From NCBI GenBank assembly GCA_026005175.1, contig BPKO01000005.1, positions 124,001-188,000 on the forward strand: 64,000 bases of DNA. The letters are read 5' to 3'. Below, in pieces: positions 10,480 through 61,470 of the stretch. The notes under the pieces are model-generated. The model was not told the origin of the DNA, did no database searches, and was given only the letters and a program-made list of their open reading frames with translations. The DNA comes from Candidatus Tectimicrobiota bacterium. Lineage in GTDB: Bacteria; Tectomicrobia; Entotheonellia; Entotheonellales; Entotheonellaceae. The translations under genes were made by a program, and so were the position numbers. Position 1 is the stretch's first letter. Each line of letters opens with the position of its first letter.

Positions 10480-10481
10480 AA

Positions 10482-10534
10482 AAAGGGGACAGGCTACTTT
10501 TCTCCAGCCTCAGAAAAAGTAGCCTGTCCCCTTT
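10482..10534. repeat. Long perfect palindrome between convergent genes (terminator and/or REP-like repeat)
   Basis: Two exactly complementary 20-base arms (10482-10501 and 10515-10534) enclose a 13-base loop. The left arm starts AAAGGGGACAGG and the right arm ends CCTGTCCCCTTT. It fills the gap between the coxL-like stop and the stop of the convergent TonB receptor, so it could terminate both transcripts. The core resembles short palindromic repeats often seen near REP-associated tyrosine transposases, but no such gene lies nearby. That resemblance is from memory. Confidence 0.75.
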
Positions 10535-12620
10535 ACCAGTTGTAGGCCACGGTGAGGCCGCCGTAGACGTTGAATCCGGGCGCTGGCTCAAAAAAGCGCC
10601 CGCCGGTGGCATTAATGCGTACGTTGCTGTTGTATTTCTCGTCAAAAAGGTTTTGGATGCCGAAGAAGGGGGCCAGCTGCCAGGGGCCGAGACGGCGCTC
10701 TAGGCCCAGGCGCAGGTTGGCCACGGCGTAAGCCTCGTTGGTGACGGTGTTCTCGTCGTCGGCAAAGAACTCGCTCACATAGAGAAGGTCAAGACCGCCG
10801 TAGAAGCCGCTGCGGTGGCGGTAGAAGAGCTCGGCATAGACCTGGTGCGGCGGCAGGCCAGGGACCTCGTTGTCTTCGAGGTCCACGCCCTCCTTGACGA
10901 ACTCCGTAAACACGGCGTTGAGGTACGTATAGGCCAGGCTCAGCCGCAGGCCTTCCAGCAGCTCCAGGCGCAGGCCGAGCTCGGCGCCAAAGCGCCGCGA
11001 CTTGCCGGCGTTGCGGAAGAAGGCGCGGCCGGTAGGGTCCTCGAAGCGAATCAGCTCGTCGCGCAGGAAAATAAAGAACAGCGCGGCCTCGTACTGCAAG
11101 CGACCTAAGGCTAGCCCTTTTACCCCCACCTCGTAGTTGATGGCTTGCTGCGGCTCGATCTCCGGGTTGATGCCGCCGCCGCCGCCGGGGCGGTTGACCA
11201 GCTCGGTGGTGGTGGGAGTTTCAAAAGACTGGGCGATGGTGACGTAGAAGTTAGCCGCGGGCAGCGGATTGAACAAAAGCCCGAAGCGGCCGGTGAGCTG
11301 GTCGAAGGTGCGCGCCCCGGTGTCGTCGCCGTCGCTGAGCAAAAAGTCGTCGATGGCAAAGCGCACGTTGTCGTAGCGGGCGCCGAGCACCAGGGTAAGG
11401 GGGTCAAAGAGGGAGAACTCCACTTGGGCGTAGGGACCGACGCTGGTGACGCGTTCGTCTTGGTGGAGGCGCAGCGTCTCGCCGGGCTGGCCGTCGACGT
11501 TGTCGAAGTTGCGGCGGCGGTCGTCCTGGTGCTGCACGTCGATGCCCACCGTAAGGCGCTGGCGCCGGCCCAGGAGCCGCCCGCGGTAGATGTACTTCAA
11601 GCCGCCGCCAAGGAAAGTGCGGTCGAAGTCCACCACCTGGAAGGGAATAGAGTTGCGGAACTGCCGCGCCGCATAGAAGCCGGTCACTTCCAGCTCGTGG
11701 CCGGGCAGGAGCTCCCGGCGGTACACCAGCCCGAGGCGCTGCTGCGCCACCTCTTCTCCCGTGCGGAAGCGCAGGTTGTTGGGGGCGGCCTGGCGCCGGT
11801 CTTCTGCCACTTCTTCCTGCGTCAGGCCGCCCGGGTCGTCGGCGCGCGGCGAGTCGACGAGGCTAAGAAGGGCAGTGAGGGAGGAGACGGCGTCGAGGTC
11901 AAAGCGAAACTTGCCGTTGACGACCACGCTTTCGGTGCGGCTCAAGTCGCGAAAGCCGCCCAGCTCCAGGCGCGAGACGCTCAGCAGGTAGTTGAGGGGG
12001 CCCACCTGGCCGCCGCTTTTGAGCTGCGCTTTCCACAGGCCAAACTCCCCGTGCAGGGTGCGGGCTTCCACAAAGGGGCGCGGCGGGCCGTCTTCGGTCA
12101 GGATGCTGATGACCCCTCCGGAAGCGTTGCCGTAGAGGGCCGAAGTTGGGCCGCGCAGCACCTCGATGCGCTGCGCCGAGCCCAGGTCGAGGCTGTCCAC
12201 CTGGCTCTGGCCGTCGGGGAGGGTCTCGGGGATGCCGTCGACGAGGATCTTGATGCCGCGGATGCCAAAAGCGGCGCGGGCACCAAAGCCGCGGATGCTG
12301 AGGCGCAGATCCTGCGCGAAGTTGAAGCGATTCTGGGGAAAGACGCCGGGCACGCGTCCCAGCGCCTCGTCGAGGCCGATGGTCTGCTGCCCGAGCTGGA
12401 TCGCCTCTTGCTCGACGACGCTGATCGCCGCCGGCACCTCCAGCAGCGGCGTGGCCACCCGCGGCGCCGTCACCACCACGGGAGGCAGCCGCAGCGGGGC
12501 CTCCGGCGCCGGCGGCGCCTGCGCCCGGGCAACAGCCAGCGCGCTGAGGAACACGCCGGCGCTAATGAGCCATACGTGGCGAGAGCCGAGAGGGCGGGCT
12601 GTGGCGCCAGTGGGGTGCAT
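10533..12620 (-). CDS. TonB-dependent outer-membrane receptor
   Basis: A signal peptide (HVWLISAGVFLSALAVARAQA) leads to a TonB-box-like VVVTAPR. The plug domain follows (EEAI-like start, then ALGRVPGVFPQNRFNFAQDLRLSIRGFG, IKILVDGIPETLPDGQ, IEVLRGPTSALYGNASGG). The remainder forms a 22-strand beta-barrel rich in alternating aromatic residues and ending in the typical terminal phenylalanine/tryptophan strand (LTVAYNW). At 695 residues it has the size of ferric-siderophore receptors such as FecA/FhuA, which use proton-motive force through TonB-ExbB-ExbD. No TonB or periplasmic binding genes adjoin it. The ATG has AAGGAGA upstream. The ligand (siderophore, metal chelate or other) cannot be inferred. 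Confidence 0.92.
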   Translation of the reverse strand: MHPTGATARPLGSRHVWLISAGVFLSALAVARAQAPPAPEAPLRLPPVVVTAPRVATPLLEVPAAISVVEQEAIQLGQQTIGLDEALGRVPGVFPQNRFNFAQDLRLSIRGFGARAAFGIRGIKILVDGIPETLPDGQSQVDSLDLGSAQRIEVLRGPTSALYGNASGGVISILTEDGPPRPFVEARTLHGEFGLWKAQLKSGGQVGPLNYLLSVSRLELGGFRDLSRTESVVVNGKFRFDLDAVSSLTALLSLVDSPRADDPGGLTQEEVAEDRRQAAPNNLRFRTGEEVAQQRLGLVYRRELLPGHELEVTGFYAARQFRNSIPFQVVDFDRTFLGGGLKYIYRGRLLGRRQRLTVGIDVQHQDDRRRNFDNVDGQPGETLRLHQDERVTSVGPYAQVEFSLFDPLTLVLGARYDNVRFAIDDFLLSDGDDTGARTFDQLTGRFGLLFNPLPAANFYVTIAQSFETPTTTELVNRPGGGGGINPEIEPQQAINYEVGVKGLALGRLQYEAALFFIFLRDELIRFEDPTGRAFFRNAGKSRRFGAELGLRLELLEGLRLSLAYTYLNAVFTEFVKEGVDLEDNEVPGLPPHQVYAELFYRHRSGFYGGLDLLYVSEFFADDENTVTNEAYAVANLRLGLERRLGPWQLAPFFGIQNLFDEKYNSNVRINATGGRFFEPAPGFNVYGGLTVAYNW

Positions 12621-12667
12621 GCGGTTCTCCTTATTGTACGCTAGGATTCGCTTGCTGTGCTACAGCC

Positions 12668-12731
12668 GGTCGCCCTGTCTTGGGGGTTGGTCAGGCTCCC
12701 TTGGGCACAGGAAGACTCTGTACAGGCGACC
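12668..12731 (-). other. Stem-loop-forming leader upstream of the TonB receptor
   Basis: Bases 12722-12731 pair with 12668-12678 over ten base pairs with one bulged base, enclosing about 43 bases of further GC-rich sequence. It lies directly after the yceI stop and 48 bases before the receptor ATG, on the coding strand of both. It may be an attenuating leader of the receptor or a hairpin ending yceI transcription. It lacks a U-run and does not match a riboswitch I recognise. Confidence 0.35.
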
Positions 12732-13268
12732 CTAAGGATGCACTGCGACAATGGTGAAGATAACGTCAACCTCGTTACGGATCGGATTGAAAAAAGCATT
12801 GTAGTTGATGCCAAAATCGCGGCGGCAGAGACGTACGCTGCCCTGCACCACGAGTTCTCCAGCCTGCTGTGTCACGGTCACAGGAATCGCAATGCGCTTG
12901 CGGACGCCGCGGATCTCGAGCTCGCCCTCCACTACGTAGCGCTTGCCGCCCTCGTGGCGCACCGCCGTGGAAGTAAAGGTGATGGTGGGGTACTGCGCCA
13001 CGAAGAGAAAGTCCTCCGAGCGCAAGTGCTTGTCGCGCTTGGCGTTGCCCGTATCGATGGAGGCGGCGTCGATGACAAAGTGCACACGCGAGGCTTCTGG
13101 GTTGTGGGCATCGGCCAGAATCTCGCCACCAAATACGCGAAACGTACCAAGTGGTCGCGCTAGCAGCGAGTAGGCTTTGAAATGAAACTGACTCTTCTGC
13201 GGGGAAATGACATAGCGGGAGCCAGCAGCCGCGATGCTGGCTAAGGCCAAAATCGCACAGGCAACCAT
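12732..13268 (-). CDS. YceI-like polyisoprenoid-binding lipocalin-fold protein
   Basis: A signal-peptide-like start (MVACAILALASIAAAG) precedes a YceI domain: SRYVISPQKSQFHFKAYSLLARPLG, FVIDAASIDTGNAKRDKHLRSEDFL and ITFTSTAVRHEGGKRYVVEGELEIRGV. This is the beta-barrel fold that binds isoprenoid or amide lipids in the periplasm. The 178-residue length is normal. The frame stays open for 26 codons further upstream, where it encodes what looks like the first residues of an ABC ATPase (see the adjacent remnant). ATG 13268 lacks an obvious ribosome-binding site, so the real start may be the upstream ATG at 13346. If so, the protein would carry an extra N-terminal tail that hides the signal peptide. 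Confidence 0.85.
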   Translation of the reverse strand: MVACAILALASIAAAGSRYVISPQKSQFHFKAYSLLARPLGTFRVFGGEILADAHNPEASRVHFVIDAASIDTGNAKRDKHLRSEDFLFVAQYPTITFTSTAVRHEGGKRYVVEGELEIRGVRKRIAIPVTVTQQAGELVVQGSVRLCRRDFGINYNAFFNPIRNEVDVIFTIVAVHP

Positions 13269-13346
13269 TGCTTCGCGCAGGACCGGGCGCCGGCCGTAGC
13301 CCAGCGTCACGTGCTCGAAAGCCACCAGGGGAGCGCCTGCCTGCAT
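13269..13346 (-). pseudogene. Remnant of an ABC-transporter ATPase N-terminus fused in frame to yceI
   Basis: The 26 codons upstream of the yceI ATG, in the same frame, read MQAGAPLVAFEHVTLGYGRR followed by PVLREA. That is the classical opening of a metal-type ABC ATPase (FEHVTLGYGxxPVLxxV, normally followed by a Walker A motif). Here the sequence passes straight into the YceI signal peptide instead. This looks like a deletion junction that removed the rest of an ATPase gene. The call rests on motif resemblance only. Confidence 0.5.
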
Positions 13347-13374
13347 GGCCTGCTTCTAGCGCAGGGCGGCCACG

Positions 13375-14892
13375 TCAGTGCCCCGGCTCACCCCAGGTGG
13401 CTTTTACCGCCTCGCGGTCGACGCTGCCTTCGGCGGTCTTGGGCAGCGCCTCGGTAAAGCTCACCCACTTGGGCCGCTTGTAGCGGGCGATGCGGCTGCC
13501 CACGTGGTCGATCACCTGCTGCGCGGTGAGCGTGGCGCCCGGGCGCAGCTCCACCACCGCCTTGATGGCCTCCCCCCACTGCGGGTCGGGGACGCCGAAG
13601 ACGCACACGCCGCTCACCCCTTCCAGCTCCATGATCACCGCTTCCACCTCTGCCGGGTAGACGTTTTCGCCGCCGGGCTTGATGAGCTCTTTTTCCGGCT
13701 TGCGCCTGACGTAGTAGAGGTAGCCCGCTTCGTCGAGGCGCCCCACGTCGCCGGTGTGGTGCCAGCCGCCGCGGAAGGTGTAGGCGGTCACCTCGGGCTG
13801 GCGGAAGTAGCCCTGAAAGACCACCGGGCCGCGCACTAGGATCTCGCCGGGGGTGCCCACCGGCACCTCGCGGTCGTAGTCGTCTACCAGCTTGATGCGG
13901 CACAGCGGTGCCGCCTTGCCGGCGCTGCCGGGATGGTCGGCATAGCGCTGCAGGGTGACAAAGCCGCTGGTTTCCGTCTGGCCAAAGCCGGTCCAGAACT
14001 GCGCCGAGGTCTGGGCGTGCAGGCGGGCGATGGCCTCTGGCCCCTCGAGGCCCGTGACGTGCTTGAGGCTGGGCAGGCGGCTGCCGGCCTGCTGCGCCGC
14101 GTCGAGCAGGTTGCTGAGCACCGGCGGGAAGCTGGTGATGTACGTCACGCGGTGGGTGTCGATGAGGCGCACCGCCTGTGCGGCGTCAAAGCGGGGCATC
14201 ACCACATTGGCGCCGCCGGCGTGCATCACCGCCAGCGCAGCGCCCAGGGCGGCAATGTGAAACAACGGCAGCGCCAGCAGGTGGCAGTCGTGCTCGCTGA
14301 GGCCCAGGCAGGCCATGCTCTGCAAGTTGGCGGCCAGGAGGTTGGCGTGGGTGAGCACGGCGCCGCGCGGGATGACGTCCACGGCGGCCGTAGAAATCAC
14401 CGCGAAGGGGTCCTCGGGGCGGGCCGCAGCGGGTGCCTCGGCGTCGCGATAGAGCTGGGCGAGGGGCGTAAAGCCCGCGGCCGGCGTTTCTTCAAACGTG
14501 TACCAGTGGGCGATGTCCTGGCGGCTGGCGGGCCACTCGGCCACCTGCGGCCGCGTGGTGGCGTCGACCACCAGCAGGCGCGGCTCGGCGCGCGCCACGA
14601 TGCGACCGATTTCTTCCGGCGACAGGCGCCAGTTGATGGGGTAGGCAAGCAGGCCGAGCTTGGCGCAGGCACCGTAGAGCTCGAGGTAAGCCGGATGGTT
14701 GAGGGCCAGGACGCAGACGCGCTCGCCCTTCTGCAGCCCCAGCCCGGCCAAGCCGGCGGCCAGGGTGTCAACGCGGTGCAGGAACTGGCGGAAGCTCAGG
14801 GTGCCCTGCTCAGAGACGACGGCAGGGCGGTCGGCGTGGATCTCGGCGTTGCGCTGCAGCATGTCGTAGAGCGTGAAGTCGTGCACGGCCAT
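13375..14892 (-). CDS. Acyl-CoA synthetase-like protein (ANL superfamily) with altered catalytic motifs
   Basis: The 505-residue protein aligns along the whole length of AMP-forming acyl-CoA ligases. It has GYFRQPEVT, GGWHHTGDVGRLDEAGYLYYVRRKPEKELIKPGGENVYPAEVE (motifs A7-A8) and the GFGQTET motif (A5). Two catalytic regions are abnormal. The P-loop, usually YTSGTTGxPKG, reads STAAVDVIPRGAVLTHAN. The C-terminal A10 motif, usually PKTxxGKIxR, reads PKTAEGSVDRE, so the universal lysine of the adenylation step is missing. It follows the dipeptide ABC genes on the same strand and has a ribosome-binding site (AGGAGACGCGAC before ATG). It may be a binding protein or an enzyme specialised for thioesterification. 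The reading frame is intact. Confidence 0.85.
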   Translation of the reverse strand: MAVHDFTLYDMLQRNAEIHADRPAVVSEQGTLSFRQFLHRVDTLAAGLAGLGLQKGERVCVLALNHPAYLELYGACAKLGLLAYPINWRLSPEEIGRIVARAEPRLLVVDATTRPQVAEWPASRQDIAHWYTFEETPAAGFTPLAQLYRDAEAPAAARPEDPFAVISTAAVDVIPRGAVLTHANLLAANLQSMACLGLSEHDCHLLALPLFHIAALGAALAVMHAGGANVVMPRFDAAQAVRLIDTHRVTYITSFPPVLSNLLDAAQQAGSRLPSLKHVTGLEGPEAIARLHAQTSAQFWTGFGQTETSGFVTLQRYADHPGSAGKAAPLCRIKLVDDYDREVPVGTPGEILVRGPVVFQGYFRQPEVTAYTFRGGWHHTGDVGRLDEAGYLYYVRRKPEKELIKPGGENVYPAEVEAVIMELEGVSGVCVFGVPDPQWGEAIKAVVELRPGATLTAQQVIDHVGSRIARYKRPKWVSFTEALPKTAEGSVDREAVKATWGEPGH

Positions 14893-14910
14893 GTCGCGTC
14901 TCCTGTAGGC

Positions 14911-15831
14911 TCAGGGTTGTCGGCGCGTCTCCCCGCGCAGCCGCGGGTCGAGCAAGTCGCGCAAGGCGTCGCCCAGCATGTTGAAGCCAAACACCGCCAG
15001 GCTGATGGCCACGCCGGGCCAGATGGCCATCCAAGGGGCTTTGTACATGTAGCTGCGGCCCGAGCCGCTGAGCATTTCGCCCCACGAGGGGTAAGGCGGC
15101 GGCACGCCGAAGCCAAGAAAGCTGAGGGCGGCCTCGATGAGGATGGCCGCCCCCAGGCCCACGGTGGCCAGCACGATGATAGGGGCCACGACGTTGGGCA
15201 GCACGTAGCGCAGGAGAATGCGCGCGTGGCCGCAGCCGACGGCGCGGGCAGCCTCGATGAAGGGCTGCTCGCGCACCGCCAGCACGGCGCTGCGGATGAC
15301 GCGCGAGCCGCTGGCGGCGGTGAGGACGCCCAGGGCGAGGATGACGTTGCCCAGGCCGGGACCGATGACGGCCATGATGCTGAGCAGGATGACCAGCCAG
15401 GGAAAGGCCTGCCAGGCGTCCACCAGGCGCTGCACGTAGGTATCGAGGCGGCCGCCAAAGTAAGCGCTGAGCACTCCCACCAGGGTGGCCAGGCCGGTGC
15501 CCAGACTCACCGTGCCCAGCCCCACCAGCATCGACACCCGTGCCCCGTAGACGATGCGGCTGAAGAGGTCCCGCCCCATGTTGTCCGTGCCCAGCAAGTA
15601 CCTCGTGCTGCTTGGCTTCAGGCGGTCGCGCAGGTGCATTTCGTCATACGGAAAGGGGGCGATCCAGTCGGCAAAGACGGCCAGCACCAGCATCAGCAAG
15701 ACGATGAGGGCCCCGACACCGCCCAGCGGCTTTTCCCGCACCAGGCGCCGCAGCAGGCGCCATCTTCCCGGGCGGGGCCGCGGGCGCGCCACGGCGTCCC
15801 TGCGGCCCAGGGTGGCCGCGTGCTGAGCCAT
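14911..15831 (-). CDS. Peptide/nickel-type ABC transporter permease (DppC/OppC family)
   Basis: This inner-membrane permease (306 residues) has an N-terminal OppC_N segment (about residues 25-75, with a hydrophobic helix ALIVLLMLVLAVFADWIAPF). The TGTDNMGRDLFSRIVYGAR-type motif and five further membrane helices follow. The EAA loop (EAARAVGCGHARILLRYVLPNV) contacts the ATPase. ATG 15831 was chosen for its GAGGAGG site; an upstream ATG at 15879 overlaps the preceding gene. It forms an operon with the DppB-type permease and the solute-binding protein just upstream. ATPase subunits are not adjacent, though DppD/DppF-type genes occur at 62.9 kb. Confidence 0.9.
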   Translation of the reverse strand: MAQHAATLGRRDAVARPRPRPGRWRLLRRLVREKPLGGVGALIVLLMLVLAVFADWIAPFPYDEMHLRDRLKPSSTRYLLGTDNMGRDLFSRIVYGARVSMLVGLGTVSLGTGLATLVGVLSAYFGGRLDTYVQRLVDAWQAFPWLVILLSIMAVIGPGLGNVILALGVLTAASGSRVIRSAVLAVREQPFIEAARAVGCGHARILLRYVLPNVVAPIIVLATVGLGAAILIEAALSFLGFGVPPPYPSWGEMLSGSGRSYMYKAPWMAIWPGVAISLAVFGFNMLGDALRDLLDPRLRGETRRQP

Positions 15832-15844
15832 GGCAGCCTCCTCC

Positions 15845-16789
15845 TCACCGGTAGTGAATCCGCGGGTCGATGTAAGCATAAGCCAGGTCGACCACCAGGT
15901 TGCTGAGCACCACGATCGTGGCCAGCACCAAGTTGACCCCCGAAATCACCGGGTAGTCGCGATAAGAGATGGCCTCGAGCAGCAAGCGGCCCATGCCGGG
16001 CAGGCCAAAAATGCTCTCCATGACCACCGTGCCGCCGGCCACCTGCGCCGTCTGGATGCCGAGAATGGTGATCACCGGCAAGATGGCGTTGCGCAGGGCG
16101 TGCTTGAGCAAGATGACGCGTTCGCCCAGGCCCTTGGCCCAGGCGGTGCGCACGTAGTCCTGCCGCAGCACTTCCAGCATCATCGCCCGCGTCAGGCGCA
16201 AGAGGCTGGCGGCGGAAGCAAAGCCCAGGATCATGGCTGGGATGGCGAACTGCACCAGGTGCCCCCAGGGATCCTCGTGCCAGGCGATGTACTGGATGGG
16301 CGGCGTCCAGCGCCACCAGAGCGAGGGCAGCACCACCACCAGTGTCGCCAGCCAGAAGCCCGGCACCGACAGCCCGCCAATGGCAAAGCTGCGCGCCAGG
16401 TAGTCCGGCCAGGTGTCCTGGCGGGCGGCCGAGAGCACGCCGATGGGGATGGCCATAAGCAAGGCAAAGGCGATGGCCAGCGCGCCCAGCTCCAGGCTCA
16501 CCGGCAGCCGGCGCAGGATCTCGCCCAGCACCGGCCGCCGCGTCCACAGCGACTCGCCCAAGTTGCCCCGCACCACCTGGCTCAGCCAGACGACGTACTG
16601 CACGTGGATGGGCCGGTTGAGGCCCAGCTTGGCCCGCATCTCCTCCAGGTCTTTGGCGTAGGTGTTTTCCTCCACCATCATCGCCACCACGTCGCCGGGA
16701 ATGAGCCGCGACAGGGTAAAGACGATGGCGGTGACCAGCAGGAGCGTGGGCACGATGAGCAGCAGGCGCTTGATGAGGTACTGCCGCAT
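15845..16789 (-). CDS. Peptide/nickel-type ABC transporter permease (DppB/OppB family)
   Basis: The 314-residue protein begins with the canonical MRQYLIKRLLLIVPTLLLVT helix. It carries the DppB pattern LGLNRPIHVQYVVWLSQVVRGNLGES and the EAA-loop sequence RTAWAKGLGERVILLKHALRNAILPVITILG. It ends after VNLVLATIVVLSNLVVDLAYAYIDPRIHY, the family's terminal helix. It forms the translocation pore together with the DppC-type protein encoded 13 bases downstream. It lies 33 bases downstream of the solute-binding protein gene. Confidence 0.92.
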   Translation of the reverse strand: MRQYLIKRLLLIVPTLLLVTAIVFTLSRLIPGDVVAMMVEENTYAKDLEEMRAKLGLNRPIHVQYVVWLSQVVRGNLGESLWTRRPVLGEILRRLPVSLELGALAIAFALLMAIPIGVLSAARQDTWPDYLARSFAIGGLSVPGFWLATLVVVLPSLWWRWTPPIQYIAWHEDPWGHLVQFAIPAMILGFASAASLLRLTRAMMLEVLRQDYVRTAWAKGLGERVILLKHALRNAILPVITILGIQTAQVAGGTVVMESIFGLPGMGRLLLEAISYRDYPVISGVNLVLATIVVLSNLVVDLAYAYIDPRIHYR

Positions 16790-16822
16790 GGTGCTGCCGG
16801 GCGGGCTGCCCGCCTCCTCCCT

Positions 16823-18464
16823 TCAGGCTTTGTCGAACCACACCTCGATGAGGCGGCTGCCAAAGTCGTAGCTGGTGTTGACCATGTAGTTCTTCACGTG
16901 CGGCTGCCACGAGCCCACGGTAAAGCCGGTGTAAAAGGGCACGTAGTACATCTGCTCGGCCAGGTAGCGCTGGATGTCGTAGATGAGCTGCCGGCGCTTC
17001 TCCACGTCCAGGGTGCGGCGCTGCGCGTCGAGCAGCTGCGCCAGCTTGGGGTCGTTGACGTAGCTCTGGTTCTTGAAGTGGCCGGGGTAGTAGGGACCGT
17101 AGAGGTAGTTGTCCGGCTCCGTGTAAGGCGTCTGCAAGCCCAGCGCCAGCATGTCGTACTTGCCCAGGAAGGTGCTGGAGATGTAAGCGCCGTACTCCTT
17201 GGCCTGGATGGTCGCCCTGATGCCGACTTGCTTCAGGAACTCGGCGGCCATCTGCACGAAGTCCTTCCATACCGAGCCGTAGGCAAACGTGGTGTGCAGC
17301 GGCGTTTCGAAGCCGTTCGGGTAGCCGGCCTGGGCCAAGAGCTTTCTGGCCTCCTTGGGGTTGTACTCCCAGTAGCGTGCCGCTTCGCCCAGCTGGTCCA
17401 CGGGCAGCGACCAGTCCACCAGGAAGGCAGGGACGTGGGCGGTGAGCACGCCGCGGCCCTCGTTAAGGGCGGCCAGCATGCCCTGGCGGTCCATGGCCAT
17501 GGAGATGGCGCGGCGCACGCGCACGTCGTTGTAAGGCGGCTGGTCGGTGCGCATGTAGAAGTACGCAAAGACGTTGGAGTGGTACTCGAGGTAGGTGTAG
17601 TCGGGGTTGCTCTGCTTGAAGGAGGGGTAGTCTTCCTGGCGAATGGCGGTGATCCACTCCGGGCCGAAGTCGAGCTGTCCGGTGCGGTAAGCGGCGGTGC
17701 GCGTGGAGAGGTCCTCGAAGACGATCCAGTGCACCTCGTCAAGGTAAGGCCGGCCGCTCATGTAGTAGTCGGGGTTGCGCTTAAGGATGCTTTGCTTGTT
17801 GGGATCCCAGCGCTCCAGAACAAAGGGACCGGTGCCGATACAGCTCTCCTGCTTTTTGAGGTCGCCGTGGGCTTCCACCGCTTCGCGGGGCACGATCCAG
17901 CTGCCCGCCGGCGAAGCCAGAATATCGAGCAGCCAGGCGTAGGGTTCCTTGAGCACGAACTTCACCGTGTACTTGTCGAGCACCTTCGAGGCGCTCGACC
18001 GAGGAGAGCATGTAGCGGTTGGCGTTGCCCGGGGTCTGGCGGAAGCGGTCGAAGGTGAACTTGACGTCTTCGGCGGTGCACTCGCGGCCGTTGACCGGCG
18101 GCTTGTTGTGCCAGTGGACGCCGCGGCGCAGGCGGAAAATATACGTGGTGGGATCGGGGTTCTCCCAGGCCTCGGCGAGGTCGCCTTCGAGGAGGTAGCG
18201 CCCCGGCTTGACGTCGGGGCCGAACTTGTGGCGCAGCAGCTTGCTGTGGGTGAAGCTAAGCAGGGTGTGGGTGCGGTACGTGATGGTGAGGTGCGGGTCG
18301 AAGTGCACCGGGTCCCAGCCGCGCAGGCGCGCAATGCCGCCGCGCTTGGGGGTGGCGGCCGCCGCGGGCAGAGAGGCGGCGGCCAACGCGGCGCCCCCCA
18401 GGAGGCCGCCCTGCAACACGTGGCGGCGGGAAAGAAGCGGGTCGTGGAGAACGGGCTGTCCCAT
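16823..18464 (-). CDS. Family-5 extracellular solute-binding protein of the peptide-type ABC importer (frameshifted)
   Basis: The protein captures peptides or similar ligands in the periplasm for the two downstream permeases. The N-terminal part shows a twin-arginine-type leader (SRRHVLQGGLLGGAALAAASLPAAAA). SBP_bac_5 features follow: LAEAWENPDPTTYIFRLRRGVHWHN, then ECTAEDVKFTFDR. The reading frame then breaks near 17990. The upstream part reads SSVERLEG and the downstream part VLDKYTVKFVLKEPYAWLLD. Removing one G restores a continuous protein of about 546 residues, with GTGPFVLERWDPNKQ and the usual C-terminus. The rest is well conserved, so a sequencing error is more likely than a true pseudogene. 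Confidence 0.85.
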
Positions 18465-52380: not shown

Positions 52381-52455
52381 CGGGGCGTAGCGCAGTCTGG
52401 CGAGCGCGTCGGTTTTGGGAACCGAAGGTCCCCGGTTCAAATCCGGGCGCCCCGA
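52381..52455 (+). tRNA. tRNA-Pro (anticodon TGG)
   Basis: A full cloverleaf can be drawn over 75 bases. The acceptor stem pairs CGGGGCG with CGCCCCG, with A as discriminator. The anticodon arm is TCGGT-TTTGGGA-ACCGA with anticodon TGG. The T arm is CCCGG-TTCAAAT-CCGGG. CCA is not encoded. The reverse strand of its 3' end carries the last codons of an island gene, which indicates an integration or deletion junction at this tRNA. Confidence 0.95.
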
Positions 52456-52838
52456 CTTGGAAACTCAAGGAGCGGCGAGCCACTGAAGATCCAGGTCTCA
52501 ATCTCCGGCTCGATAACTACCACCTCGGCACGACCTGCCAACCCCTTCTTCTTGAGCTCTTCACGCACGGCAGCCTCGGTGGCCGCGGCTGTGTCGTGCG
52601 GGTTGCCGTCGAAGGCGTGGTCGAAGACGAGCAGGCCCCGTGCGTCTTGTGCCGCGCCGATGAGGCCGGCCAGCAGCTCCGCGCCCGTGTGCAGGCAGCC
52701 CGGGTCGTGCTGGGGATGCCGGTAAAGCTGGTAGGCGATCTCGCGGATGCCAAGAGCACGGTAGCGCCGGCCGAGCAGCGCATCAAGCGCAGCCTCGATG
52801 TCCTTATCGGCCACGAGGCCCACCAGCTCGGCCCTCAT
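52437..52838 (-). CDS. TOPRIM-like/DUF4276-type protein paired with an AAA ATPase, C-terminally cut at tRNA-Pro
   Basis: The product begins MRAELVGLVADKDIEAALDA and has LLVFDHAFDGNPHDTAAATEAAVREEL and a C-terminal EPEIETWIFSG. This order (acidic xxDKxxE, then an aspartate-rich strand, then ExExW) resembles TOPRIM-fold nucleases of the DUF4276/RloB kind that accompany AAA ATPases in phage-defence modules. The frame ends inside the tRNA-Pro gene; the last residues (PSRGARI) are antisense tRNA sequence. Relatives continue well past the ETWIFSG motif, so 133 residues is probably a truncated length. Its ATG overlaps the ATPase stop (ATGA). Confidence 0.6.
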   Translation of the reverse strand: MRAELVGLVADKDIEAALDALLGRRYRALGIREIAYQLYRHPQHDPGCLHTGAELLAGLIGAAQDARGLLVFDHAFDGNPHDTAAATEAAVREELKKKGLAGRAEVVVIEPEIETWIFSGSPLLEFPSRGARI

Positions 52839-54147
52839 CTGAGCACTCCCGCCGCAAATAGCGTTGCAAGGTCAAGCGTCCCCCGCCACGCCTTGAGGCG
52901 CGGGTGGTCGCTGCCGCGGACCACCGCGGTTGCTCCCTCCTTGCCGCGCGCAAAACAGAGCAAGTCCTCTGGGCGTGCGAGGCCGAGGATCACCGGCGAG
53001 TGGGTGGCCAGGAGCACTTGCGCGCCGTAAACCGACGAGAGCGCCTGATAGACCGTCTCCACAGCACGGGGATGGATGCCGTTTTCGGGCTCCTCGACGA
53101 GATAGATCCCGCCCTCGACGTCGCCGCTGTAAGCCAAAAGCGTGAGCGCTAGAAGGCGGAGCGTGCCGTCGGAGACGAGCCAAGCGGGCGCCTCGAGCCC
53201 GTTTTCGTAGCGGATGACCAAGTAGCGGTGCCGGTCCTCGGCGCGTTCGGCCGTGTCGATGTTCACCACGTCGGGCAGGGCCTCGCGCACGTGTTCGATC
53301 CAGCGCCGGTAGCGGTCGGGGTCGGCTGCCTTCAGGCGGTCGATGACGTACGGCAGGTTCGAGCCGTCCGGCAGGAAGCCCGCCTTGCGGGTCGGTGCGG
53401 CAGGTCGCCGCATCGCTTCTGCCGAGAGCGCCAGCCGCCGCACCCCGGCCCTGGAGCGTGTCGCGCAGCCAGAGGGCGCAGGGAAAGCGCTCGCGGTCTT
53501 CCGGCAAGCTCGCGAGCGCGGCCTTTCCTGAGGGGAGCGTAAAGGGCGCATTCCAGCCTGTGGTCTCCGAGATGTAGTCGGCGCGCTCGCCCCGTACGAC
53601 GATTTTCTTCCATCCGGCGGGCGCGTGCCGGCGTGGCGGCTTGACGATGTGCTCGGGTGGCTCGGCCGGCGCGGGGAAAAGCGCGGCTTGCCGCGGAGGC
53701 CTGGGCGTCTCGGATGCGGCCTTCATAAGCCACAGGTTCTCTCTCTCGACACGAGGGGTATCGTCAGTTTGGATCGCGATCTCGTAGCGGACGCGGTCGT
53801 ATCTGCTCTTTGTTTGGTCTCGAAGAGCGGGGGGAACGGCGAGCTCGAGGGCAACCTCAAAGCGGCCTCCTTCACGCAGCCACGTGAGGTGCTTCGGGTC
53901 GGGGCCCGCGGTGCGGCACGTCGGTGCGGGGGTCACCGCGCACCGCCGCATCAAGATCGGTTCGGAGCAAGTCGCCGACGAAAGCCACCACATCGAGGAA
54001 GGTGGACTTGCCGCTCGCATTTGGCCCTACCAGAAGCTGAAACGGCGCGAGCGGCTGGTCGATGTACTGCAAACACCGGTAGCGAAGCGCCTGCATGCGC
54101 ACTATTCCGCATTGCCTGCTGACGGGACCTTCTCGACTTCGGTTCAT
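52835..54147 (-). CDS. AAA_21-type ATPase of a defence-like AAA/TOPRIM pair (two frameshifts)
   Basis: The N-terminal segment MQALRYRCLQYIDQPLAPFQ followed by LLVGPNASGKSTFLDVVAFVGDLL holds Walker A. The C-terminal part holds GGIYLVEEPENGIHPRAVETVYQAL (Walker B and D-loop) and VLLATHSPVILGL. This is an SMC/RecF-like ATPase of about 437 residues. Frames change near 53925 and near 53446. One-base corrections give a continuous protein. ATG 54147 has GGAGGTGGTGAC upstream. The next gene overlaps its stop by 4 bases, so the two are expressed as a pair. OLD, PARIS, Gabija and Septu share this two-gene logic, but I cannot assign it to one of them. Confidence 0.7.
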
Positions 54148-55053: not shown

Positions 55054-56885
55054 CTAAGCGAGGAGCTGGCGGAGCTCTGCATCGGTGACGTAGGGGGCTT
55101 GCAGCCGCTCCGGCTCGCCCAGATCCCTGAAGAGCAAATCCCCGCGCCCGAGGAGGGTGGCAGCGCCGGGATGGTTCAGAATGAGCCGGGATTCGAGCGG
55201 TTTGGTCACCTTCAGCGCGACCCGGGCGACCAGGTTGGCATCGATGACCCCCTTCACGATCTCCCGACTGGGGCGCTGGGTGGCAAAGACCAGATGGAGG
55301 CCGGCTGCCCTTCCCCTGGCTCCCAGGCGGGCGAGGCGGGGCCCTCGATCTCTTGTCGTCTTTGGCGGTTCCCAAGCACAAGGTCGGCGTACTCATCACA
55401 GAGGCACAGGAGGCGGGGCAGCGGATGGGCCGCGCGGGCGTTGTAATCGCGCAGATCATCGACTTGCAGGGCCACGAGGCGCCGGTACCGCGCGTCCATC
55501 TCTTCGACCAGGGCATCCAGCACGTCGAGGAGGTCAGTCTCGTCGGGATAGACGATCGGCTGCCACAGGAAAGGGGAGTTTTCACAGGGGCCAAAAGCCG
55601 TCCGCTTTGGATCGATGAGGAGCAGGCGCAGGGTCTCGGGACGATTCGACACCACCAGACTCGCGATCAGGGCCCTGAGCCAGGTGCTCTTGCCGCTTCC
55701 GGTCGTTCCTGCTACCAGGATATGGCAGTTCTCCGGTTCAGCAAGATCGGCCCAGCGCAGGGAGCCGTCCACCCGCACGCCAACGGGAAACCGGGTGGTC
55801 CCGGTCGCTGCCGGTGGAGGGAGCTTCTTCCTGAGATCTCGCCAGAGGACAGGCTGGCGGTCGGGCCGCTGGACGTCGATGGCGATCCGCCCCTGCTGAA
55901 TGGACAACTGAGGGGGCTGCTCGGTCTCGAGCCGGGTCCAGACACTGTTTGCCACTTCGAGCACCTGTGAGACCTTGACCCCGCGCTCCGGTACGGCGAA
56001 GAACCGGATGAAGGTGGGCCCCACCAGGGGCTCCCCGTCGAGACGCAGCGGGGCTTTGAACTCGGCAAAGGCCGCTATCACCCGCTGGGCGAGTTCTATA
56101 TACCGTGGCGGAAAAATGGGCGGTGGGACGGGACCCATGACGCCTGCGAGACGCCCGAGCAAGGCCTTCAGCCGCGCCTGGATGTCGGCCAGCCGGACGG
56201 GCTCAAAAATCACTTCCCGGCGCTCCGGCTCAAACGCCACCAGGGCGAGGGATGGCGCGCCGGCGTGGCGCCAGCGGGGATCGCTCTGCAGCAGCAGGTG
56301 GTAGAGGCCGCACTGGCAGAGATCGACCTCTGGGGACGTGCGGCCCAGCTTGAGCTCGACCAGGCAAAGCGCGCCGGTGGCAGGCTGCCGCAGGAGTGGT
56401 CTGCCCGTCCCCGCACCACGACGGTGTCCTGCCACGCGGGATCCGTGATTTCGGCTTCCAGCTCCTCTTCGTGGCCGACAAAGATCCGCTGCCGGAGGGC
56501 TTCCAGTGAGACCCCAGGCTGGCGGCGGCGCTGCTCCCACAGAACTTCGGCCACCCACTGGCACAGCTGGCGGACCGCCTCCCAGTAAGCAAGCACCGCG
56601 TTGGTGGCCTGCTGGAGCTCGGCCTGGTGGCGGCCCAGCTGCGGGGCCGACCTGCCACAGGTAGGCGTGATCGACCAGACGGCCTATCCACGAGGCGAGA
56701 GTGGCGTCTGCTTGCTCAAGGGGACGCACGAGGTTCTGCGCCGGATCCGGGCCGGTGAGGGCCACAAATGTCTCGTGGAACAGGCGCCCCAGGAGCGGGA
56801 GGGACGGCTGCCCGGGGCCGCCCGGGCAGCCGGCAGTCTGGTACAGGTGCTGGCGAATCTCGGAAACCGTGAGCGTCCGAGGCAT
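55054..56885 (-). CDS. PD-(D/E)XK nuclease domain fused to an FtsK/SpoIIIE-type DNA translocase (three frameshifts)
   Basis: The reconstructed protein has about 610 residues. After an N-terminal helical region, residues about 150-220 contain GRAD, then TGALCLVELKLGRT and DLCQCGLYHLLLQ. That is the D...ExK...Q pattern of PD-(D/E)XK nucleases. The second half is an FtsK motor: HILVAGTTGSGKSTWLRALIASL (Walker A), LLLIDPKRTAF and LLCLCDEYADLVL (Walker B). The C-terminal end (HLVFATQRPSREIVKGVIDANL, ARVALKV) continues with PGAATLLGRGDLLF. Frames change near 56637, 56392 and 55345. ATG 56885 has AGGGGAG upstream. It is the last gene of a three-gene operon. I infer DNA tracking plus cleavage, comparable in logic to HerA-NurA. 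Confidence 0.72.
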
Positions 56886-56895
56886 GGCTTCTCCC

Positions 56896-58864
56896 CTATG
56901 GTCGCTCGACTGCCTCAGGATGGAGAAACACCACCGCCGGAGGCCCGGGCAGGTAGCCAACCTCTCGGGCATACTGCCTTGCCAGAGAAGCCACCTGCTC
57001 CTCCGCAAGGCCCAACTCCTGGACTACCTCCGTGAGGCGCAGCAGCCAGCGACCCACCAGGTGCTCCCGGAGGCGCTCGAGCGCCTCCGGAGGCACCGCA
57101 GAGCCTTCCAGCACGTCAGCGAGGAAGTCCTGAAGGGGACGAGGAAGGTGCTGGCACAGCCAGGGCCCTTCAGTTCCCCGGGAGAAACGTCCCGGCCGTC
57201 GACCGTCAGGTCTCCTGCTTCGGCTTCGTTGAGAAGCCGCCGGGCAGCGGCCAGGGCGGCATAGGCCTCGGCCGAAGGCCGAAGGAGCCGCTGCCCGCTC
57301 TCTTGCAGCTGCTTCAGATACTGGCGCGTCGCTTTGGCAGTGGCCGGGATGTCCCGCAGCCGCCGGTCCCGGATAAGAAGCAGCCGGGGGAGCTGGCCCC
57401 GCTGGACGAGCCCGAGCAACCGCCGCAGGCGCGCGGCCAGGCTCGTCATGTGCTCGGCGTGGCAGACCGCCACCCCCCATTTGCTGACTCCCGTACCATT
57501 AGCAGATCCACGTCTCGCATCGGCGAGCGCTTTCCTCGCATCCCGGCTGGTCGGCTTACTTCGAGAAGAAGGGCCAAGCCCCCGGCATAGACGCCCTCGT
57601 CTAGCTTGGGCCGCGGGCGCTCGAGCTCCTCGTCAAAGACCCTCTCCCATACTGTTTCGAGATCAAGCAGGGGAGGCGGTGGCAGCGGCGGGCGGTGGAT
57701 CAGTACCCGCCGCCTTGCTTCAAACAGGTCCCGGCAGGCCCAGAGGAACTTGCGGGCAGAGATCCCTTCCGGCGGCACGGCAGCCTCGATCTCGGGGCGC
57801 GTCAGCGGCCAGAAGGGATCCGGGTCCTGGCAGAGCGCCCTGGCCCGCTGGAGAGCTTCGGAGACTTCCAGCCGCTTGGCGGCCAGCACCAGGGCCGTTT
57901 CGCGGTTAAGCAGGTCCAGTGTGGACTCATCCTGGGCTAACCGATGATAGTGGGGCCGCGCGGACTGAGTCCCGCAGGACCCGAAGAAAGGACGTCTGCA
58001 CGCAACTGATAACGGCTAAGTTGCGACGCTCGATGAACAGGTGGTCAGCGATGCCGCTGGCAAAGACCCAAAGCCCGTATTGGTCCGCCGGGTCGATCTG
58101 GAGTCCCTCCATCTGGTCAAAGGCCAGGACGATGGCAAAGGGGTGGGCAGCCAGCCGGGAGAAGGTAACGATCGCCTGCTTGGCCCGCTCCTCGTCGTCA
58201 AGAGTCCCGGCCGCGCCAAGCCGCTCCGCTGCTTCGTCTCGCACGGCTCGGCCAAGTAGCCATTGGTAGGCTTCGAGCCGATGGACTCCGGCCAGGTAAT
58301 ACCGCAGCACCGTGCTCACCTCGGGATCCAGCCAGAGGCGGAACACCAGCCTTGTCAAAGGTTCTGCGAGCCAGGCCAGCAGGGCAGGCCCCGGGCGGAT
58401 GCTCGGTCCGGAGCCGCTGCCACCAGGCCGTGACCTCACTGAGCGAGGCGTCAGCGCGTCCCAGGAGCTGCCGGCCCACCACCAGTTCCACCTGGCTCAG
58501 GTCGTCTTGGCCGGGGGTGCTACGGGCGAGGTCCTCCACCAGGCGACTCAGGAGGTGGCGGAAGAAGCGATCAGGATGGGTAGGGGGCGGCACGTAGATA
58601 AACCACCCCTCGGCGTCTTGCTGCACCCGGCGCCGCAGTCGCTGCAGCAGATGGGTTTTCCCCGAACCGGGCTCGCCGTGAAGCATCAGCCCCCGGGACT
58701 CACCCTCCTCCCGAACCTTCCGGACGGTCTCCAGACACGCCTCGAAGGCCCCTCCGGTTGATCGTTTCGACGTCCACCGGGACTTTGTCCCAGGCGGAAT
58801 CGACTCGGTCCCCCTCAAAGGGATTGGGAACCGTGCTGAGCAAGGGTTCCAGCTCTGGCTCCAT
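56896..58864 (-). CDS. Large P-loop (STAND/AAA-like) ATPase of the FtsK-nuclease operon (five frameshifts)
   Basis: The reconstructed protein of about 655 residues starts MEPELEPLLSTVPNPFEGDR. It has Walker A SRGLMLHGEPGSGKTHLLQRL and a Walker-B-like IVLAFDQMEGLQIDP, followed by sensor-like NLAVISCVQTSFLRVLRDSV. The C-terminal half is a helical, Arg/Leu-rich region ending PAVVFLHPEAVERP with no recognised domain. Frame breaks lie near 58755, 58393, 57955, 57472 (a six-G run) and 57165. Each needs one base. It begins 3 bases after the winged-helix gene and ends 10 bases before the FtsK fusion, so all three are one operon. It could be the sensor or switch subunit. Confidence 0.7.
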
Positions 58865-58867
58865 AGC

Positions 58868-59681
58868 TCACTCCAGCCGCAAGCCGATGGCCATGAAGTA
58901 GCTCCCCCATCGATTTGGAACCATCCTCTTCCGCTCCTCCGGCGTCAGCTGAGCCGGTCGGTCGTGGGACTGGAGCTGCACCTTGCCTTGCTCGGCCAAG
59001 CGGAGAACCGCCTGGTTAAAGGAGAGCGTGTCGGAAAAGTAAGAGCGAACCGCCTTCCGGAGGTCGGGAAGGTAGACCAGAGCCCCGCGGACGGCGTGGG
59101 GGTTGAGGTGGAGCATGGCATCACGGATCGCTTGCTTCCCGGCCTCCCAGAGAAAAGCCCGCAGCGCTGCCCAGATGCTTCCGGGAGCAAAGCCCTGCTT
59201 CTGGAAGGCGCCTACCAGATTCTCCACCGCCGGTCGGAGGTACTCCTGCAGCTCGGGAGGGGCGAGGCCATAGGGTTCCCGGCGGCCGCGCCTTGGGTGC
59301 TTCCAGACGCGGCCTGCTTGGCAGAGTTCGTCCAGCGTCCTGTCCACCAAGGATTGGGCAGCCCGCGGCAGCTTCTTCTTCAGGGCGGCCTTGGTGAGCG
59401 GGCCGTGCCGCTCCAGGAGCTGCACGACCCGCTCTTGGACAAAGAGCGTAAAGCGACGGGACGCGTATCCTGGGGGACGAAGCGGCCACTTGAAAAGGCG
59501 GCCCTGCCGAACCAGGAGCGCAAGCCGCTCGTTGAGCCACTCCGGCGAGAGCCGCAGGCCAGGGGGGAAGGGCGCGCCGGATCTTGGACAGGGTGAGAGG
59601 CTCAGGCCCTGCGGCGACAACCTTGCAGATCAGTTCTTCCAGATCGGCAGGAGGAAGCGCTGGCTCGCCACGCTTTGGCAT
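58868..59681 (-). CDS. Winged-helix-containing first protein of the FtsK-nuclease operon (one frameshift)
   Basis: The reconstructed protein of about 271 residues begins MPKRGEPALPPADLEELICK, followed by a helix-turn-helix-like LTLSKIRRA. After a frame break near 59574 it continues PEWLNERLALLVRQGRLFKWPL and VQERVVQLLERHGPLTKAALKKKLPRAAQSLVDRTLDELCQAGRVWKHPRRGRREPY. These look like two tandem winged helices. The C-terminal half is uncharacterised. ATG 59681 has AAGGAG nine bases upstream. It may recognise DNA or regulate the operon. I do not recognise the family. Confidence 0.6.
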
Positions 59682-60182
59682 CCGATCGGCTCCTTCCTCT
59701 CGCAGGGTCGCCCCGCCGCCAGCGCGGGCGACCTTATTTCCGGCCTGACATCCAGTGCCGCACGCAACACTTGGAAACGACAATACTGCCATGAATTGAT
59801 GCAACGCAGAGGATGCCATGGACAGAAGGAAGGGTCAAGCCGGGGGAGGCCCAGCCGCTGGGCCAAGGCCGCATAGACGGCATCAGCGCCCCTCAAGTGG
59901 AGCTGGGCTGCCAGGCTGGCACTGCGCTGGGCCAGCGACCGGTCCACGGGCACCAGCGGGACGTTGGGTAGCCGCTGGAGCAGGGCTACCACGCGGGTGG
60001 CCAGGGCTGACGATCCCGTCCGGCGGGCCACGGCCCCCTGCCAGCTCGGGAAGAAGTAGGGCGGGGCTAGCGAGAGCCTCTCCTTCTTCCACGCGCTCTC
60101 TGAGCCAGGCATGACTTGCCTGGTGGTGAGCGTCGGTAGGAACGAACCGCACCACCCACACGCTGGCGTCCACCACGTACAC
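59630..60182 (-). CDS. VapC-like PIN-domain toxin (frameshifted)
   Basis: The start VYVVDASVWVVRFVPTDAHH has the first PIN aspartate. SPALLLPELAG carries the conserved glutamate. After a frame break in a C5 run near 60036, the sequence continues AVARRTGSSALATRVVALLQ and LRGADAVYAALAQRLGLPRL with the third acidic site. The GTG start lies 1 base after the antitoxin stop. PIN toxins are Mg2+-dependent RNases. The end is unclear, since the normal family length would stop near 59780, and the present frame overlaps the start of the next gene. Confidence 0.75.
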
Positions 60183-60183
60183 C

Positions 60184-60444
60184 CTACAGCTCCCGCCGCT
60201 GCTCTCGGACAGCCTCAACGGCAGAAAGGCCGGCGGGCCAGCAGGCGCCAATCTCCTGGGCCAGTGCCTCCATGTCGGCCCAGACCCTGAAGGCCTCAGC
60301 CCGCACTCCCTCCGTCTCCGCCACGGGCACCAGCCGTGCGATGACGCGGCTCCGATAGGTGATAGAAATGACCTCGCCCTCGCGGACGCGGCGTAACACC
60401 TCGCTGGTGCGTTGCTTCAGCTCCCGAATTCCAATCTCCTCCAT
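60184..60444 (-). CDS. Phd/YefM-type antitoxin
   Basis: The 86-residue protein starts MEEIGIRELKQRTSEVLRRV and continues REGEVISITYRSRVIARLVPV, the canonical Phd/YefM fold that binds operator DNA. Its C-terminal half should block the PIN toxin encoded next. AGGAGGGG precedes ATG 60444, and a short palindrome lies just upstream, consistent with autoregulation. Confidence 0.88.
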   Translation of the reverse strand: MEEIGIRELKQRTSEVLRRVREGEVISITYRSRVIARLVPVAETEGVRAEAFRVWADMEALAQEIGACWPAGLSAVEAVREQRREL

Positions 60445-60695: not shown

Positions 60696-61470
60696 ATGCC
60701 GACCCCTGGTCCACAAGGGGGTGCGGCTGGCCTACGAAGACCGCGGCGCGGGCAAGCCGGCGTTTGTCTTCGTCCACGGCTGGACGTGCAACCGCTCTTT
60801 CTTTGCCCCGCAGGCCGAGTACTTTGCGCGGCGCCACCGGGTGGTGTCGGTGGACTTGCGCGGCCATGGCGACAGCGACAAGCCCCAGGGCGAGTATTCG
60901 ATTGCCACCTATGCCGACGACCTCGCTTACCTCATCGGCCAGCTGGGGCTCGGCAAAGTGATTGCCGTGGGTCACAGCATGGGCGGCATCACCGTGTTGC
61001 AGCTGGCCGCCGCCCATCCCGACTGCGTGGCCGCCATCGTCATGGTCGACCCGGCCCCTTTTGTGCGTCCGCCCGAGCTGCGCCAGGCTGCCGAGACGAT
61101 GATCGCCGCCATCGAAGCCGGCAATCAGGAGCCCCGCCGGCAGTTCATCACCGAGCGCCTCTTCTTGCCCACCTCCGACCGCAAGCTGGTGGAAGACGTG
61201 CTGGCCGTCATGCTGGCGGCGCCGCCGCACGTGGCTGCCAGCGCCATGCGGGGCATTCTGGCCTTCGACGGAGTAGCAGCGGCGGCGCGGTGCCGGGTGC
61301 CGGCCCTGCACCTGGCCGCCACGCCCCCTCTTAACCCGCCGCACCAGATGGCGGAGTGGCTCCCGGGAGTGGTGCAGGGCTGGACGGTGGGGGCCGGGCA
61401 CTTCAACCAGCTCGAGGTGCCCGAGCAAGTCAACGCCATGATCGAGGGCTTCTTGCGCCACTACGTTTAA
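60696..61470 (+). CDS. Alpha/beta-hydrolase (frameshifted at its start)
   Basis: The sequence after the fifth codon is a typical alpha/beta-hydrolase: GKPAFVFVHGWTCNRSFF (oxyanion hole), DLRGHGDSDKPQGEYS, and nucleophile elbow VIAVGHSMGGITVLQL. The catalytic histidine is in TVGAGHFNQLEVPEQV. AAGGAGG precedes ATG 60696, but from that ATG the frame is wrong after three codons. Removing one C in the CCCC run at 60703-60706 gives MPTLVHKGVRLAYEDRGAGK. The corrected protein has 257 residues. Esterase, C-C hydrolase or haloperoxidase-like activity cannot be distinguished. Confidence 0.88.

Follow-up and report, generated by a model that had tools for sequence, protein, structure and literature searches.

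A winged-helix, Orc/CDC6-type ATPase and nuclease-FtsK gene trio in a Tectimicrobiota genome, a probable member of a predicted class of anti-invader systems

A 64,000-nucleotide stretch of the genome of Candidatus Tectimicrobiota bacterium (contig BPKO01000005.1, positions 124,001 to 188,000), hereafter the window, carries three adjoining genes on its minus strand, at positions 59681-55054, which we call A, B, and C. The first-pass annotation had described three same-strand genes with intergenic gaps of 3 bases (A/B) and 10 bases (B/C), and direct reading of the frames confirms this arrangement. The parts it had named are also found, namely a winged helix in A (in the model of a homolog), a P-loop ATPase in B, and a nuclease with an FtsK motor in C. 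The coordinates of the genes and of the other features discussed here, including winged helix-turn-helix (wHTH) domains, are collected in Table 1.

Table 1. Features of the trio, its surroundings and related loci. Positions are those of the window unless another contig or locus is named.
Feature	Position	Strand	Details
Gene A, predicted winged-helix protein	58868..59681 including stop	-	270 amino acids read through; switch near 59561
Gene A frames	59681-59562 and 59560-58871	-	direct reading
Gene B, predicted Orc/CDC6-type AAA+ ATPase	56896..58864	-	655 amino acids read through
Gene B frame switches	near 58747, 58397, 57946, 57480, 57160	-	
Nuclease-like domain in B, without ExK, before C-terminal wHTH	57171..57590 (approximate limits)	-	element order in L044 model
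Gene C, predicted PD-(D/E)XK nuclease + FtsK-alpha + FtsK motor	55054..56885	-	600 amino acids read through
Gene C frame switches	near 56648, 56374, 55336	-	
Nuclease active-site stretch in C (GRLFH, GRAD, ELK, Q)	56313..56792	-	H37, D162, E170, K172, Q184 of read-through
FtsK motor in C	55057..55805	-	Walker A GTTGSGKS, DPKRTAF, Walker B CDEYAD, ATQRP
Phd-type antitoxin + PIN-domain toxin pair	59630-60444	-	directly upstream of trio; frame-broken
mad3/mad4-like pair	52440-54147	-	adjoins tRNA-Pro; frame-broken AAA_21 ATPase + small partner
Apparent dndA-E run	window's genome (G000), contig C1 ~1114900-1122400 (L131 ~9917-17410)		methyltransferase-like gene after
Motor-less form	L038 7342-10725; L039 7539-10799; L040 659-4118		beside nicotinamidase-like gene

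Full read-through of the trio requires nine frame switches, one in A, five in B, and three in C, and the corrected proteins have the lengths given in Table 1. A run of at least four identical bases lies within 22 nucleotides of eight of the nine switch points, against 43% of all 45-nucleotide windows in the span. The Pfam match of a nearby unrelated CoA transferase at 61356 stops at position 315 of 366 within its frame, and the apparent C-terminus of that protein sits in another frame. Given the identical-base runs near the switches and the broken unrelated genes nearby, the nine breaks look like assembly errors, although this is unproven. The initial profiles of A, B, and C included a row from the window itself; in a later test, profiles built from homologs alone were run against the 842 window frames, and the trio frames alone were matched, in order.

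Gene C is predicted from its sequence to encode, in one protein, a RecB/Cas4-like PD-(D/E)XK nuclease, an FtsK-alpha domain, and an FtsK motor. The homolog-only profile finds four segments in three frames (best E-value 3.1e-127), and the Pfam family FtsK_SpoIIIE matches the motor with an E-value of 6.1e-34. For FtsK_alpha, the window C gives 0.013, which is below the cut-off, and three homologs give 1.9e-9 to 7.2e-11. PDDEXK_1 matches three cyanobacterial homologs (5.6e-16 to 2e-11) and three nuclease homologs of a motor-less form, described below (3.3e-22 to 1.1e-17). Across 61 C proteins, comprising those of 59 homologous loci, the window, and a plasmid copy (L004), the five nuclease residues listed in Table 1 are invariant in 61 of 61, as are the Walker A lysine and the Walker B aspartate and glutamate of the motor. 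It follows that both activities of C appear to have been retained together.

The N-terminal part of C varies between lineages. In three intact cyanobacterial homologs, Pfam places a DNA_pol_A_exo1 3'-5' exonuclease in front, followed by PDDEXK_1, FtsK_alpha, and FtsK; 38 of the 50 cyanobacterial C proteins have a length of at least 840 amino acids, and 38 of 50 likewise have a DTE motif close to the N-terminus. The exonuclease is absent from the window C and from all full-length non-cyanobacterial C proteins (0/9). The same division holds for the cysteines of an iron-sulfur (Fe-S) site. The first motif is present in 47 of 50 and the three-cysteine motif in 49 of 50 cyanobacterial C proteins, versus none of the nine full-length non-cyanobacterial ones, and the nuclease of the window C is without the Fe-S cysteines typical of the cyanobacterial versions.

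In B, a Walker A motif, GEPGSGKTHLL, and a Walker B-like motif, AIVLAFDQME, are accompanied by Pfam matches to AAA_16/AAA_22, and the homolog-only profile finds five window frames with E-values from 1.3e-30 to 1.8e-5. The nearest intact B, from a Vicinamibacteria locus (L044), was modelled with a predicted local distance difference test (pLDDT) score of 88.9. When this model is compared with the PDB, ORC/Cdc6 proteins lead, followed by TnsC and BrxC, with Z scores from 16.8 down to 13; the top ORC/Cdc6 match has a Foldseek E-value of 4.4e-6 and, by VIA, a Z of 16.8 with a root-mean-square deviation of 3.1 over 241 aligned residues. The fold of the model thus indicates that B is an Orc/CDC6-like AAA+ ATPase. 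Residues 436-511 of the same model follow the order alpha-beta-beta-beta-alpha-beta, ahead of a C-terminal wHTH at 605-660. This order fits a PD-(D/E)XK core, a comparison of order alone; a D...ExK signature was not seen in the B of the window or in the displayed B homologs.

Two further searches with B touch on its relatives. Matches on Tolypothrix/Nostoc and Synechococcus plasmids proved to be other ATPases, not trios, and were dropped. On the Tolypothrix plasmid (L003 3603-9992), a B-like ATPase that is annotated as an exonuclease-domain protein adjoins genes for DUF87/HerA and NurA. A scan of viral contigs with the B alignment returned seven loci, in which the match is limited to about 42 residues around the P-loop.

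Gene A changes fast, with identities to the first alignment row of 14-28% and one exception at 53%. When A alone was first searched for in 60 relatives, the sole match was in the window's own genome. A profile of six non-cyanobacterial homologs that leaves out the window finds A at 1.4e-26, and a 30-homolog profile at 9.3e-14. The homolog at L048, modelled at pLDDT 91.1, has three wHTH units, and its structural matches are generic winged-helix proteins; by this model, A is likely a three-winged-helix protein. DndG, SspB, and FokI were not among the displayed VIA and Foldseek rows for the A and B models, which excludes nothing.

The first-pass annotation had asked whether the three genes recur together, and they do. 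When named genomes were scanned with a short segment of the motor, 243 stretches and 208 relatives were obtained, and the best 80 loci were kept: 65 in Cyanobacteria and 15 in 14 genomes outside that phylum, in Acidobacteriota, Planctomycetota, Thermodesulfobacteriota, Myxococcota, and others titled Deltaproteobacteria. A full-length B lies directly before C in 59 of these best 80 loci, and an A profile match is present in 53 of the 59. The other 21 loci have no single-open-reading-frame full-length B beside C (cut contigs, broken frames). Among the six loci without an A profile match, four (L046, L053, L054, and L055) have an upstream reading frame aligned as A, L044 begins near a contig end, and at L049 no such frame was called. 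Among plasmids, a search showed that pPSE7367.01, a conjugative plasmid of Pseudanabaena sp. PCC 7367, also carries the trio.

In a tree of 32 C rows, the window falls in a non-cyanobacterial clade (13 rows, 100/100) that stands against a cyanobacterial one, and it groups there with one Vicinamibacteria (Acidobacteriota) and one Myxococcota row (3 rows, 100/99); the placement of the long-branched rows L057 and L054 is unsure. The kinship of the trio thus crosses phyla. Its distribution is nonetheless accessory overall and nearly fixed in places. A two-row B profile matches 11 of 386 diverse genomes, the window's own included, and the contexts of these matches include intact trios in three cyanobacteria. 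In Cyanobacteria, B is present in 38 of 291 genomes, 32 of them at an E-value of 1e-150 or better. Five cyanobacterial genomes have three B matches each (G051:C1, G447:C1, G588, G499, and G610), and in G051 two B matches stand in tandem behind one A gene.

Some neighbours of the trio recur. A ParA-like ATPase gene lies downstream on the same strand in 23 of the 59 loci, often at less than 200 nucleotides (L058 near 8751, L122 near 8674), and may be a partner or merely share the chromosomal site. Upstream of A, a DPPY-type DNA methyltransferase-like gene is found at L073 1839-2783, L089 2414-3250, L091 1302-2267, and L112 2732-3691, all in related Leptolyngbya-like cyanobacteria.

The domain set of the trio matches a class that has been predicted before. 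A comparative-genomic study in Nucleic Acids Research in 2024 (PMC10853773) predicts 'Orc/CDC6 + nuclease + HerA/FtsK' counter-invader systems. As its main text describes them, they contain an Orc/CDC6 AAA+ protein with a dead nuclease inserted before the C-terminal wHTH, an active restriction-type nuclease drawn from either of two families, and a HerA/FtsK motor, with FtsK-alpha in one set. A subset has an extra protein with two to four wHTH domains, and in some a 3'-5' exonuclease is fused to FtsK. The authors suggest that the Orc/CDC6 part localises the apparatus and that the FtsK part intercepts DNA. The words "cyanobacteria" and "Cas4" are absent from that main text.

Set against this description, the Orc/CDC6 AAA+ ATPase corresponds to B, by the model of the L044 homolog and the same-family profile that finds the window B. 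The motor with FtsK-alpha corresponds to C, by its FtsK_SpoIIIE match and the FtsK_alpha matches of three homologs, and the protein with two to four wHTH domains to A, by the three units of the L048 model. For the inserted dead nuclease, the putative domain in B is a candidate, with a similar element order and with ExK missing. For the active nuclease, the candidate is that of C, which keeps its RecB/Cas4-like site throughout the 61 proteins. The optional fused exonuclease is absent from the window C and present in most cyanobacterial C proteins. Compared by the main-text description, the trio therefore fits a diverged member of this class, and the earlier suggestion of an undescribed system is not supported. 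Searches of a single open-access paper library showed no experimental work on the trio, which is not proof of absence.

We propose that the trio is probably a DNA-targeting anti-invader module of this predicted 'Orc/CDC6 - nuclease - HerA/FtsK' kind. A, with its putative three winged helices, and B would sense some property or condition of DNA that is entering the cell or being replicated and would use ATP to load C onto it, the three proteins presumably forming a complex. C would assemble as an FtsK-type ring and pump double-stranded DNA, and the RecB/Cas4-like nuclease domains attached to it would cut the DNA as it moves through; the C of most cyanobacterial versions would have a 3'-5' exonuclease domain in addition. 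The target would be an invader, and self DNA would be spared. The defence role is a prediction. It is consistent with the same gene order kept by the homologous trios, with the presence of BrxC, which comes from a defence system, among the fold matches of B, and with the accessory distribution, the plasmid copy, and the mad3/mad4-like and toxin-antitoxin neighbours in the window.

Several observations weigh against this proposal. Within one cyanobacterial genus, 15 of the 16 genomes have B. A motor-less relative, made up of a winged-helix protein, a relative of B, and a Cas4-like nuclease that stands alone with no FtsK, occupies the same chromosomal site in three genomes from a single family, and its B is found in 11 of the 49 genomes from that class. 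The near-fixation in the one case and the shared site in the other would also fit a housekeeping or repair role. In addition, the neighbours of other trio loci look mostly ordinary, and neither A nor B is covered by a PADLOC model.

The near-fixation of B in places leaves room for a repair role, in which the trio would be a machine for DNA-end processing or recombination repair like HerA-NurA or AddAB, with C resecting broken or stalled DNA and A and B serving as its loader. A motor joined to a RecB-family nuclease would suit this function, as would the exonuclease-sized N-terminus of 38 of the 50 cyanobacterial C proteins and the nicotinamidase-like gene that adjoins the motor-less variant in its three genomes, and the frequent downstream ParA-like gene hints at vertically kept chromosomal loci. 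We nevertheless consider repair unlikely: B is absent from 253 of 291 cyanobacteria and from 375 of the 386 bacteria sampled, and the plasmid copy, the fast evolution of A, and the cross-phylum kinship also speak against it.

FtsK, Orc, and wHTH parts are found in mobile-element functions as well, and the copy on a conjugative plasmid, together with the ParA-like gene, could point to a system for maintenance or transfer of an element (plasmid partition or conjugative DNA processing) and not to defence. This is highly improbable. Most of the copies found are on chromosome-sized or ordinary contigs, no transfer genes recur among the neighbour clusters listed, and an active nuclease fused to the motor would be unusual for partition.

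A special form of the anti-invader proposal would make the trio a phosphorothioate-dependent restriction system located away from the modification genes, hitting DNA that is without the DndABCDE mark, as DndFGH and SspFGH do. The window's genome has a DndC above the curated cut-off, within an apparent dndA-E run at a contig end (Table 1; the dnd gene names other than DndC are read from translations), and no SspH-like protein was found in it apart from C, whose motor is closest to SspH in PADLOC. Among 291 cyanobacteria, 72 have DndC above the cut-off. By Fisher tests, which treat related genomes as independent although they are not, DndC is present in 36 of 38 B-bearing versus 36 of 253 B-less cyanobacteria (1.6e-23), the B-bearing exceptions being G431 and G540, and in 23 of 24 genera with B versus 17 of 91 without it (1.9e-12). 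By the same test, it is present in 30 of 32 B-bearing versus 7 of 27 B-less genomes of at least 3.3 Mb (5.7e-8), the B-less sample being 48 genomes taken by identifier number, from which the 27 of that size were picked by hand. A family-level count of 13/13 versus 4/17 is biased, as all DndC-positive rows and few of the negatives were listed, and it is not relied on. PMC8569181 reports that dnd genes are enriched in Nostocales and that the dndFGH cluster is absent there.

Outside Cyanobacteria, DndC is found in only 1 of 14 other trio genomes versus 2 of 66 other genomes, and it is absent from the three motor-less genomes of that comparison set. Because 13 of those 14 trio genomes are without dndC, the link between trio and dnd is not general. 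Since B and dndC are concentrated in the same cyanobacterial families, phylogeny may account for the association; within family f267, many B-less genomes also carry DndC. No dnd gene was found in the 80 trio loci and four further loci searched, and in single-contig genomes the trio and dnd loci are far apart. Phosphorothioate-dependent restriction is thus, in our view, quite unlikely. A further proposal, which we hold as rather doubtful, is that "orphan" phosphorothioation in Cyanobacteria has its missing restriction partner in the unlinked trio, which would attack unmarked DNA, with kin elsewhere relying on another self mark or on none. The window's genome, holding both, would then be a rare instance of this pairing outside Cyanobacteria. 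If the co-occurrence were functional, it would tell which system restricts unmarked DNA in Cyanobacteria, a phylum in which phosphorothioation is common and dndFGH is reported absent.

The immediate surroundings of the trio had been described as a defence-like island, which stands in part. The trio is flanked by a mad3/mad4-like pair, whose AAA_21 ATPase matches the mad3/HEC-01A/AriA models and whose small partner matches mad4 weakly, and by the Phd/PIN pair. Against this description, no integration repeat of tRNA-Pro turned up when one was searched for, the longest matches being of 12 bases, and the GC content is flat around the locus.

Comparison with other described systems shows shared parts in each case. 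The PADLOC check proposed with the first-pass annotation gave SspH as the closest match of the C motor and no model for A or B. SspFGH of V. anguillarum (PMC8092258) also consists of three genes, among whose products are a Walker-A protein and a C-terminal motor of FtsK type, and the motor of C matches SspH at 3.6e-56 over 276 residues. The match, however, is confined to positions 1236-1558 of 1561 or 1472-1761 of 1766, C has 600 residues against SspH profiles of 1561-1766, and no ssp modification genes were noted beside the trio. SspFGH was rejected as the identity of the trio, since the likeness to SspH is confined to the FtsK motor of C and neither A nor B is matched by an SspF or SspG model.

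DndFGH, BREX, MADS, and HerA-NurA were each considered as well, and none was taken as the identity of the trio. DndFGH (DptFGH), as treated in the main text of PMC10853773, is a three-gene set of an NTPase, a multi-wHTH protein, and a nuclease with a HerA/FtsK motor; unlike the trio, it has a kinase-like P-loop protein in DndF and a larger multi-domain protein in DndH. The dnd_assoc_2 (DptH-type) profile has no match in the window's genome, which is 77% complete, but it has none in 14 controls either. BREX also has an Orc/CDC6-type ATPase, BrxC, which ranks among the fold matches of B, although the BrxC profile match is weak (5.8e-4) and no PglZ or methyltransferase was noted beside the window trio; passages of PMC12839542 describe BREX-related HerA/FtsK (BRC) systems that add HerA/FtsK and wHTH proteins. 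For MADS, the C motor matches mad8 (4.2e-21) and the window neighbours match mad3 and mad4, the other mad genes not having been searched for, but such a mad3/mad4-like pair is not among the recurrent trio neighbour clusters listed. HerA-NurA is a ring motor that works with a nuclease. In C, by contrast, nuclease and motor are fused and the motor is of the FtsK type, while the trio further includes an Orc-like ATPase and a wHTH protein. The trio would be a concrete and compact three-gene example of the Orc/CDC6 - HerA/FtsK class, for which so far there has been prediction only. Intact copies exist in culturable cyanobacteria, with the nuclease and motor sites conserved throughout.

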